Assembly: GCA_020350565.1 (NCBI GenBank)
Contig: CP070718.1
Span: forward strand, 3,664,387-3,714,301
Direction of reading: 5' to 3'
From: Phycisphaerales bacterium
GTDB taxonomy: Bacteria; Planctomycetota; Phycisphaerae; UBA1845
DNA length: 49,915 nt
In this document: one piece after another, positions 31,000 to 40,466 of the stretch
How positions within the stretch are numbered: the stretch's first letter is position 1
Layout of the letters: each line of letters opens with the position of its first letter
Program-made: the position numbers and the translations under genes
The notes under the pieces: generated by a model
Seen by the model: the letters and a program-made list of their open reading frames with translations, nothing else
Database searches by the model: none
What the model was told of the DNA's origin: nothing

Positions 31000-31162
31000 A
31001 GCTGTTTGCCAAGCTGGAGTCGGCCCATGTTTTCTGAGCCTTCTCGGATGCTCTCAGAAACCGTGAGGCTTCAAAGGCGATGGGCAGATGAACCACCTCG
31101 GCCGACGATCTGATGCGGACAACGACATTGGACTGATTCTTCACTCTGGGAGTCTTTCGGTG

Positions 31163-33001
31163 ATGAAGAGACACCATGGCAACACAAACGACAAGCGGAA
31201 CGAAAGGTCGAGTTATCGCGTCGCGGGCAACTCTCGACGATGGCTTCGAGGAATGCTCCCGGCGACGATCTGTATAGCCCTCGTGGCATGGATCGCCTCT
31301 CCGATGGCGATCGCTCAAGCCCCCTCACCCGACAAGGGCGATGCGCAAAAGCCCGAGGGCGCGCAAAAGGCCCCAGCCGACCTCAAAAAGACCTCTCTCA
31401 ACCCGGCGCAGCCCCAACAAGGCACGCCAAAGATCCTAGTGGCCAAGCCGGTGCATGACTTCGGTGAGTTCTGGTCCGGCACGGCCTTAAGAAACGTGTT
31501 CGCCATCAAGAACGAAGGCACGGCGCCACTCGAGATCCTCAAGGTCAGACGCACGTGCGGCTGCACGGAAGCGGGCGCGCACCCGGACAAGCTCGCACCT
31601 GGTGAGACCGGCGAGTTCCCCTTCTCCCTCGACAGCACGAAGGTCAAGGGCAAATTCAACAAGGAAATCAAGATCGAGACCAACGATCCGTCCAACCCGA
31701 CAACCACGCTCAGCCTCGTCGGGAATTGCAAACATTACGTGGACGTCGATAAGAAGGTCATCCATTTCAAATCGGTCTTTGGAAATGAGCCGGTTACGCA
31801 AACGGCCAAAATCACCAACAACACGGACGTCGACCTCAAACTCACGCTCGCCCCCATGAGCGAGGAGTCCAAGGTGAAGTACGAGCTGGTGGAAAAAGTG
31901 CCCGGCAAGGAATTCGAGCTTGTCGCACGCGTGGAACCGCCGTATGTGCCCGGGACCAACGTCCGAGAGAAAGTCACCTTGAATTCGAGCATCATCAAGC
32001 AGAGGACGATCGACATCCGTGTCTCGGCCACCTTCCCGGAGCGGTTGTCCGTCTCGCCCAGTCCGTTGTCGCTCGAGCCGCTTCCCAGGCCCATCACCAA
32101 GCAGTTGCTGTTCCGCAATGAAGGGCCAACATCGGTCAAGGTCCTGGATGCCCGCGTCAACGACGATAAGCTCAGTGCTTCCGTAATCGAAAAGAAGCCC
32201 GGTAAGGAATACGTCATCCGATTGGACGTCCCTCCCAATTACAGCGCGCCAAGCGAAGGACGCACACTCGTGGTCCAGACAGACGACCAGGAGCAGCCGG
32301 AGATCAAGGTCGGCATAAGAACCCCTACCCCGCGCGTCACGCCAACGCGACAGACCGCGGAGCGCCCCGCGCAGAAGCTCAAGGGTCAACCTGCCCCCCC
32401 GATCGCGGTAACAACGATCGACGGCAAGGGCCTGAGCAGCGCCGACTTCAACGACAAACTCACTGTCGTAAACTTCTTCGCCCCCAACTGCCCCCACTGC
32501 AAAAGGCAACTGCCCAGGGTCGAGACGGTACGTAAGGAATTCGAGTCCAAGGGCGTCCGATTCGTGAATGTCAGCCAGACGATGAGAAAGCCCTACACTG
32601 ACGAAGAGGTGGTCTCGACCGTCAGAGACGCGTTCGGCGTCCAGGGCGAGTTGGCCATCAATTCAGATAACACCGTGGGCCGAAGATGGAAGGCAACCAG
32701 CTTCCCGACGCTGTTCGTCGTCGACGGCCAGGGAAACGTCGCCGAGGTCATCATCGGCAACAAGGGTACTCTCCAGACCGACCTCACCAAATCGTTGGCG
32801 ACACTACTCAGTCCTGATGCGAAGACGATGGCTCAGCCTGCAGAGGCCGCACCGAAGCCGACCACGCAGAGCGGCAACGAACCCGTGGGAGAGAAGCCGG
32901 ATCAGGCGAGAATTCAACGGATCCGCACCGGCGATGTACCGAACTTGGGCCAAGCCGAAAAGCCGGAGAAGAAGGAAGGGCAAGAGAAAGATAAACCGTA
33001 G
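31163..33001 (+). CDS. Exported DUF1573-thioredoxin fusion protein
   Basis: 612 residues from ATG 31163; ATG 31088 and ATG 31253 are alternatives. Basic start and hydrophobic stretch MLPATICIALVAWIASPMA (about 31-49) form a signal peptide or anchor. A Pro/Lys-rich linker leads to a DUF1573 domain (about 92-190) with NEGTAPLEIL and the conserved Cys pair C132/C134 in TCGCT, followed by PGET and TNDPSNP. A second immunoglobulin-like region spans about 200-390. A TlpA-like thioredoxin domain (about 408-555) has the active site CPHC (C443, C446) and the cis-Pro loop SFPTLFVVDG. Likely a disulfide reductase or isomerase of the cell envelope acting on a fixed partner. Tail is charged and disordered. 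Paralogue at 38782. Confidence 0.85.
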   Translation: MKRHHGNTNDKRNERSSYRVAGNSRRWLRGMLPATICIALVAWIASPMAIAQAPSPDKGDAQKPEGAQKAPADLKKTSLNPAQPQQGTPKILVAKPVHDFGEFWSGTALRNVFAIKNEGTAPLEILKVRRTCGCTEAGAHPDKLAPGETGEFPFSLDSTKVKGKFNKEIKIETNDPSNPTTTLSLVGNCKHYVDVDKKVIHFKSVFGNEPVTQTAKITNNTDVDLKLTLAPMSEESKVKYELVEKVPGKEFELVARVEPPYVPGTNVREKVTLNSSIIKQRTIDIRVSATFPERLSVSPSPLSLEPLPRPITKQLLFRNEGPTSVKVLDARVNDDKLSASVIEKKPGKEYVIRLDVPPNYSAPSEGRTLVVQTDDQEQPEIKVGIRTPTPRVTPTRQTAERPAQKLKGQPAPPIAVTTIDGKGLSSADFNDKLTVVNFFAPNCPHCKRQLPRVETVRKEFESKGVRFVNVSQTMRKPYTDEEVVSTVRDAFGVQGELAINSDNTVGRRWKATSFPTLFVVDGQGNVAEVIIGNKGTLQTDLTKSLATLLSPDAKTMAQPAEAAPKPTTQSGNEPVGEKPDQARIQRIRTGDVPNLGQAEKPEKKEGQEKDKP

Positions 33002-38781: not shown

Positions 38782-40329
38782 ATGTTGAGAACTCACGGAT
38801 CAGTACAGTCCGGCCGACACTTGGGCTCCTTGTTCCGCGTGAACCTGAGCGTGTTGTGCCTGCTGGCTTTCACGGGATACCTCTTCGCGCAAGAGCCCGG
38901 ACCAAAGGGCCAGGGTAGCAAGAAGCCGGCCGACGAAACGCAAAAGCCGGAGCCGAAAGCACCCTCGAAAAAACCCACGCAAGAGGGACACAACATCACC
39001 CCCAAGCCCACTCAGCCGAGAGTGATACCGGCGCCCAATCCCAAAGCTCGCCCCGGTCTGTCAAGCGGGAGAGAGACACCAGGAAAGCCCGCCGCACCGA
39101 AGTCGCTTAGGGGCACACAGCGCTCCAAAAGGGGCAGAGCCAGTGCCGGATTCCAGATGGATCCCAACACCAAGTGGGCGTGTGACAAAACGGTCGTCGA
39201 ACTCGAACCGGTCTGGCGAGGGGAGGATCGGCTGACATTCGCTTTCGATATTCGCAATGAAGGAACGGCCGACCTGAGGTTCCGCGCCAAAGGCGGGTGA
39301 GGGACCAAATTCAACGGTCGGGCCGACCGTACGGTAAAGCCGGGTGAGACGGATCATCTTGAAGTCAGCTTCCACTGCCGCAAGCTCAAGAGCAAGTTCA
39401 CCCGAGACATCAAAGTAACCACCAACGATCCAACGAAGCCAAGCGTCACCCTCACGTGCAAGGGACAGATCCTCGAGCCGATGATCGTAGAACCAAAGCT
39501 TTTGAACTTCGGCCAGGTCTCGCGCCTGCAAGAAGTCGCCCCAAAGAAAGCCGTTTTGACAAAAGGCGACGGCGGACCGATCAGCCCCAAGCTGAAGCCC
39601 TTCGAACAGACCGGCATCGAGGCTGATTTGAAGGAGATCAAGCCGGGCGAAACGTATGAACTCGAAGTGAAATTGGCCGAGGAGTTCGATGGCAAGCTGG
39701 GCCGGGCGGATCTTGAACTGGAAACGGGTGTCGCTGAAGCTCCCGTGATCAAGTTCCAGGTGTTCGCTCGATGGCTTCCCCGACTGGTCGCGAAGCCCAG
39801 ATACTTCTCGCTCCCGATGCAGCCCTCCGTCGATACGGAATTGCGCGTCAACCTGGAATGGGATGACAAGAAGCCCCATAAGGTTGAAAATCTCAGCGTC
39901 GATGACCCGGACCTCCAAGTGCGCCTCGAGGAGAACGACGGGCAACAGGAAGTAGTCCTTGTCGTGCCGGCCGGGTACCGACCCCTGACCAACAGGCGCA
40001 CCATCCTCATGGAGACGGACGATCCCACGGTGAAGAAATTCCAGATCCAAGCCATCGCCAAGCGGGACTACAAGCCGCTTCGCGCGGCCCCCACTACTCC
40101 CCCAAAACCCGTTGTCACCAAGGGGGAAACGGAGCCCGCCGCAATCCGCGCGAAAGCAGAAGCCGTCGAGACGGGAAGCACCGCGAAAACGGCCACACTG
40201 GAAGCGAAAGGGATCGAGAAAACCTCGATCAAAGAGGTCGCCAAACGAAAGAGGAAGGATACGTCCGATCCGGAAGAGCAACCCTCTGAGTCAAAAGAAG
40301 AGGCAACGAAGGCCAAAGGGAAGCCGTAG
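38782..40329 (+). CDS. Exported DUF1573 protein with one in-frame UGA: candidate selenoprotein
   Basis: 515 codons from ATG 38782 (AAGGAG seven bases upstream). Signal peptide about 16-37 (FRVNLSVLCLLAFTGYLFAQ). A Pro/Lys-rich linker leads to a DUF1573-type domain (about 130-225) with NEGTADLRFRAKGG, then codon 173 UGA (39298-39300), then GTKFNGRADRTVKPGET and TNDPTKP. Against the paralogue at 31163 (NEGTAPLEILKVRRTCGCTE, with PGET and TNDPSNP), the UGA falls on the first Cys of CGC, allowing one gap. The frame stays open for 342 more codons with coding-like sequence and normal domain structure. ACGGTCG-GGC-CGACCGT (39314-39330) is a 7-bp hairpin placed like a bacterial SECIS. No thioredoxin domain here. 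Alternatives: a Cys codon mutated to stop, or a sequencing error. Confidence 0.7.
39314..39330 (+). promoter_or_regulatory. SECIS-like hairpin behind the in-frame UGA
   Basis: Stem ACGGTCG (39314-39320) and CGACCGT (39324-39330), apical loop GGC (39321-39323). The first loop base is G and is 21 nt after the UGA, within the 16-37 nt window and loop rule used for bacterial SECIS elements. Whether it is functional is not shown. Confidence 0.5.
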
Positions 40330-40346: not shown

Positions 40347-40466
40347 TGGAAAAGGGGACATTCTACTTTTTCCTCGACGATCCAGGTCCCGGCCGGACAT
40401 CAAGCGTGGTGCTCCCGGCCGGGCTCAGCGACCAGGGACGTCGAAAAGTAGAATGTCCCCTTTCCA
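40347..40466. repeat. Inverted-repeat element, AAAAGGGGAC family, second type (copy C)
   Basis: TGGAAAAGGGGACATTCTAC (starting about 40347) pairs with GTAGAATGTCCCCTTTCCA (ending 40466); the arms extend through CTTTTT..TCGA and TCGAAAAG. The centre holds CCCGGCCGG and CCCGGCCGGG, which can also pair. The outer core AAAAGGGGACA is shared with copies A and B, but the interior differs, so this is a related second type. It begins 18 bp after the stop of the UGA-containing gene. Confidence 0.75.

Follow-up and report, generated by a model that had tools for sequence, protein, structure and literature searches.

The gene at positions 38782-40329 of the window (the whole stretch of 49,915 nucleotides of Phycisphaerales bacterium DNA that was analysed) has a UGA at codon 173 that, judged from sequence comparison, very probably encodes selenocysteine (Sec). 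The sequence-only reading, which placed Sec at this residue of an exported protein, is supported by alternation with Cys only, a covarying SECIS-like hairpin, selA in the genome, and selB and tRNA-Sec in most relatives. Of its proposed refutations that could be computed, nearly all were resolved in its favour. The gene product would be an exported, multi-domain Ig-like (DUF1573) selenoprotein. What appears to be new, on the aligned sequences, is a real clade of 50 sequences (the UGx clade) within the known DUF1573 selenoprotein family, in which the second Cys of the Cys-Gly-Cys (CGC) motif is gone (U-G-T, U-G-V, U-G-M and others).

Gene layout and proposed role of the protein

The features of the gene, and of a Cys paralogue in the same window, are as follows.

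38782-40329 (+): putative DUF1573 selenoprotein gene, 515 aa; the read-through protein, P0001, takes the single in-frame UGA as Sec (residue 173)
38782-38889 (+): probable signal peptide, residues 1-36, from reading the sequence
39184-39471 (+): DUF1573 / HYDIN-like Ig domain, residues 135-230, containing the UGA (Pfam match and Ig-fold model)
39298-39300 (+): UGA codon, proposed selenocysteine (homologue codon alignment)
39314-39320 (+): SECIS 5' stem arm, ACGGTCG (sequence, alignment and covariation)
39321-39323 (+): SECIS apical loop, GGC; the G that opens it lies 21 nt downstream of the UGA
39324-39330 (+): SECIS 3' stem arm, CGACCGT (sequence, alignment and covariation)
39472-40076 (+): about two more predicted beta-sandwich domains C-terminal to the Sec domain, with approximate limits
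31088-33001 (+): DUF1573 paralogue with Cys (motif CGC) and a fused thioredoxin/redoxin domain (Pfam and alignment)

The TGA at residue 173 is the sole stop inside the frame 38782-40329, and it is followed by 342 open codons and then a TAG. The Pfam family PF07610 (DUF1573) matches residues 135-230 across the UGA, with 41.5 bits against a gathering score of 26.1. The ORF and Pfam results confirm the original description of a DUF1573 frame with one UGA, domain sequence before it and 342 codons after it. The motif at the Sec site of P0001 is U-G-T. No thioredoxin or redoxin domain was found in P0001 by the Pfam domain scan. The predicted model (mean pLDDT 90) shows beta-sandwich domains arranged in a chain. 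In the first Ig domain the Sec position is in a loop following a beta strand, at the place of CGC in ordinary relatives. The best matches in a fold search with this model are Ig-like ciliary (HYDIN-type) domains; the overall superposition is poor, so no function was read from them. A search for solved structures matching P0001 by sequence found none, and no conserved gene neighbour pointing to function was found around the gene in relatives.

An inverted pair of AAAGTAGAATGTCCCC lies just 3' of the gene, at 40354-40369 (-) and 40445-40460 (+) of the window. There are nine exact copies in the genome, including two further pairs with the same spacing, and none of the reversed control. The element has the appearance of a dispersed palindromic repeat.

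The paralogue at 31088-33001 has the first Cys of its CGC at the place aligned to the UGA, as first read. The planctomycete DUF1573-thioredoxin fusions of this type share the Ig-like domain and the motif position with the Sec protein, but they carry CGC, and their chains include from one to three thioredoxin/redoxin domains, whereas the Sec protein carries Sec and stands alone. Thioredoxin/redoxin domains occur in the same chain in all ten CGC homologues scanned, and this association in sequence would link the CGC site to thiol-disulfide chemistry.

The selenol may be the reactive centre of a periplasmic module for thiol/disulfide or peroxide redox chemistry. Since the scanned CGC relatives have thioredoxin/redoxin in the chain and the Sec form does not, the module would work with a separate thioredoxin-like partner. 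We know of no redox activity of DUF1573. A lone Sec in a motif without a second Cys, in some members without any further Cys within the aligned region, and an Ig-fold model that is not a classical redox fold would also fit a Sec that binds a metal or metalloid, or that forms a mainly structural or sensory site. This is rather unlikely, since Sec is normally kept for its redox reactivity and the domain fusions of all ten scanned CGC relatives point the other way. The redox mechanism is the favoured role for the Sec module, at a modest level of confidence.

Codon at the Sec site in homologues

Homologues were searched in 60 related genomes, then in the order (114 genomes) and the phylum (392 genomes), and 143 remained after the removal of duplicates. 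The first search, with the read-through protein in the 60 related genomes, found more than 20 homologues having exactly one in-frame TGA. These TGAs fall on the codon aligned to residue 173, with one (L026) a codon off by alignment; a TGA one codon either side of the aligned column was taken as the same site. Counted in this way, the codon is TGA in 64, TGC in 70 and TGT in 9 of the 143 non-redundant homologues, and no other codon occurs. The sequence-only reading staked its proposal on every homologue having Cys or UGA here, and these three codons are all that is seen.

In 27 of 27 aligned TGA genes the frame is open before and after the UGA, and the protein after the UGA is conserved. Third codon positions are the most variable both upstream and downstream of the UGA, which indicates constraint at the protein level. 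The genome itself has a second DUF1573 gene (L052:1004-2023; C1:1303410-1304630) with a TGA at the same codon and the same SECIS hairpin.

SECIS hairpin

The hairpin ACGGTCG-GGC-CGACCGT is present at 39314-39330 with the first loop G 21 nt past the UGA, as had been described, and its assignment as a SECIS-like element is borne out by its retention across TGA homologues with compensatory base changes. In a gap-free alignment of 27 TGA genes (A1), the 7-bp stem is paired in 98.4% of cells, with changes on both sides in 4 of the 7 pairs. The stem covariation is 0.409, compared with 0.137 when shuffled and at most 0.085 when slid. Since 64 homologues have the UGA and the hairpin covaries, the UGA is beyond chance.

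The 7-bp stem, 3-nt loop and 13-nt spacer occur in nearly all TGA genes of the order's two Sec clades (52 rows). Scored in this fixed register, the mean stem score is 6.59/7 in 44 UGx genes, 7.0/7 in the order's 8 UGC genes and 2.18/7 in 79 Cys homologues, most of which lack the hairpin. Two UGx genes (L207 and L209) have the hairpin outside the fixed register. Three Cys genes (L196, L197 and L219) still have 6 of the 7 stem pairs, as fossil SECIS elements would. The 12 UGC genes of families f30 and f97, outside the order, have a register score of 2.25, and by eye their hairpins differ from the SECIS of the order.

Bacterial SECIS elements, such as that of E. coli fdhF, are in-frame hairpins shortly downstream of the UGA, with a G within a small apical loop. 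The element described here is alike in these respects, but its stem is unusually regular: almost every member in the order keeps 7 bp, a 3-nt loop and the same 13-nt spacer. The exact UGA-plus-hairpin pattern, scanned for across 84,980 species genomes, occurs at 29 sites. Of these, 25 are in this DUF1573 family, in records titled Phycisphaerae, Phycisphaerales or Planctomycetota and in one titled merely "bacterium". The remaining four look like chance. There was no match to the pattern in the viral contigs scanned, a plasmid search gave nothing, and no Rfam element matches near the gene.

Sec machinery and proposed decoding of the UGA

On comparative evidence, SelB and tRNA-Sec very probably read the UGA at codon 173 as Sec, guided by the in-frame hairpin lying 13 nt downstream. 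The search for sel genes that had been proposed for this genome gave a mixed outcome. A selA gene was found (526 bits); selB, selD and selC (tRNA-Sec) were not found in the assembly, which is 67% complete and contains N runs. The best selB-like match has the length of EF-Tu, and the selD-like matches look like ThiL and HypE. Five relatives have selB just upstream of selA, in the same orientation. In this genome an N gap cuts selA off on exactly that side, so the absence of selB is plausibly due to an assembly gap.

Most relatives have selB and tRNA-Sec, the former above the cut-off in 50 and the latter in 47 of the 60 genomes. Of the 19 more distantly related genomes examined, 18 also have a tRNA-Sec above the cut-off. 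Among these 19, the f30 genomes and G314 carry TGA homologues, while G187, G221, G379 and G381 have TGA at positions other than this codon.

A standard tRNA-Sec was not found in seven TGA-carrying genomes (this one and six more), two of which are 97% complete. The tRNA-Sec candidates in this genome and in G018, G021, G029, G031 and G047 are ordinary tRNAs for Ser, Leu, Arg, Cys or Met. In the seventh genome, G017, a tRNA on contig 151 (L247:1501-1618) has the anticodon UCA and agrees with the tRNA-Sec of relatives in its anticodon, variable and T arms; its 5' half (D region) is different and exceeds theirs by about 25 nt. The six other TGA genomes without a standard tRNA-Sec, this one included, might carry a similar variant.

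The seven genomes would also fit a UGA read as another amino acid, such as Trp or ordinary Cys, through a general suppressor or a reassigned code. This is very unlikely. Several TGA homologues terminate at a TGA of their own, so the codon is not generally reassigned; the TGA at the site alternates solely with Cys codons; relatives have selA and selB; and the hairpin would be left without a role. A true stop or sequencing error, with the downstream frame as either a relic or the 3' half of a split pseudogene, takes only one change from TGC and fits an assembly without selB and selC, but this reading, like a frameshift, is rejected with near certainty since the TGA is conserved at the same codon in 64 non-redundant homologues (second copy included), there is no other stop, the downstream protein is conserved and the hairpin covaries.

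Relation to known DUF1573 selenoproteins

The OS_HP2 / DUF1573 selenoprotein was reportedly first listed in an original paper of 2007, from a symbiont of Olavius algarvensis. Reviews list a DUF1573 selenoprotein with the motif UGC (PMC9312934, PMC13188914), and an ocean survey of 2008 lists OS_HP2 with pfam07610 and UxC (PMC2398784). The initial statement, which knew of no described DUF1573 selenoprotein, is therefore wrong. The description of the gene as a candidate new selenoprotein also has to be softened, since the OS_HP2 family with U-G-C was already listed; the selenoprotein is supported, but the DUF1573 family has been listed since 2007-2008 and the U-G-T branch is a variant of it.

The protein has the same Pfam domain as OS_HP2 (PF07610, NF041425) and, as in that family, Sec would take the place of one CGC cysteine. 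With the NCBIfam model NF041425 (OS_HP2), P0001 reaches 45 bits, which is below the curated cut-off of 100. Unlike OS_HP2, with its listed U-G-C (UxC), P0001 has U-G-T, and the second Cys is lost in the clade (U-G-T/V/M/F/L/I/S/R). No description of this lone-Sec DUF1573 clade was found in the literature searched.

Clades and evolution

Sec is found in three regions of the tree of 143 rows: the UGx clade, a UGC group of the same order with 8 Sec rows mixed with Cys rows, and 12 UGC or USC rows of families f30 and f97 of the phylum. The Sec/Cys label changes 10 times on the tree compared with 47 in shuffles, in an alignment that includes the column of the trait itself. The UGx clade (44 Sec and 6 Cys sequences) is strongly supported and, among the genomes searched, is confined to one planctomycete order. 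The f30 genomes, which belong to a different part of the phylum, have two distinct UGC DUF1573 selenoprotein paralogues with other hairpins, NGT-UGC and KPG-UGC (L131, L133, L134, L143, L129 and L128, L130, L132, L135, L141, L144).

The second Cys of CGC is absent from the 44 Sec members of the clade and is kept in 73 of 73 other Cys homologues. In its place the clade has T (20), V (10), M (5), F (3), L, I, R or S. A Cys immediately before the site (Cys-Cys-Gly) is present in 5 of the 6 Cys members of the clade, in 0 of 44 Sec members and in 0 of 73 other Cys homologues. One Sec apparently serves in place of two Cys: the second Cys is lost in the clade, and where lineages went back to Cys, most have a new one beside it. 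The association of this return with the adjacent Cys in the sequences is suggestive, but it is not significant because there are only about four independent pairs. There is about an even chance that this planctomycete order built an exported selenoprotein lineage in which one Sec replaces a two-Cys redox centre, and in which reversion to Cys tends to need a second, adjacent Cys (Cys-Cys-Gly).

Ordinary annotation halts at the UGA, so this exported family is probably misread in many Phycisphaerae-type genomes. The clade allows Sec, Cys-Gly-Cys and Cys-Cys-Gly to be compared in nature at a single site, with putative fossil SECIS elements in some of the Cys genes, and the benefit of Sec over Cys becomes directly testable on a fold other than thioredoxin. 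If the proposal is true, these proteins would form a natural series of one-Sec and two-Cys chemistry on a single Ig-like scaffold, and the clade would point to a redox role for DUF1573.
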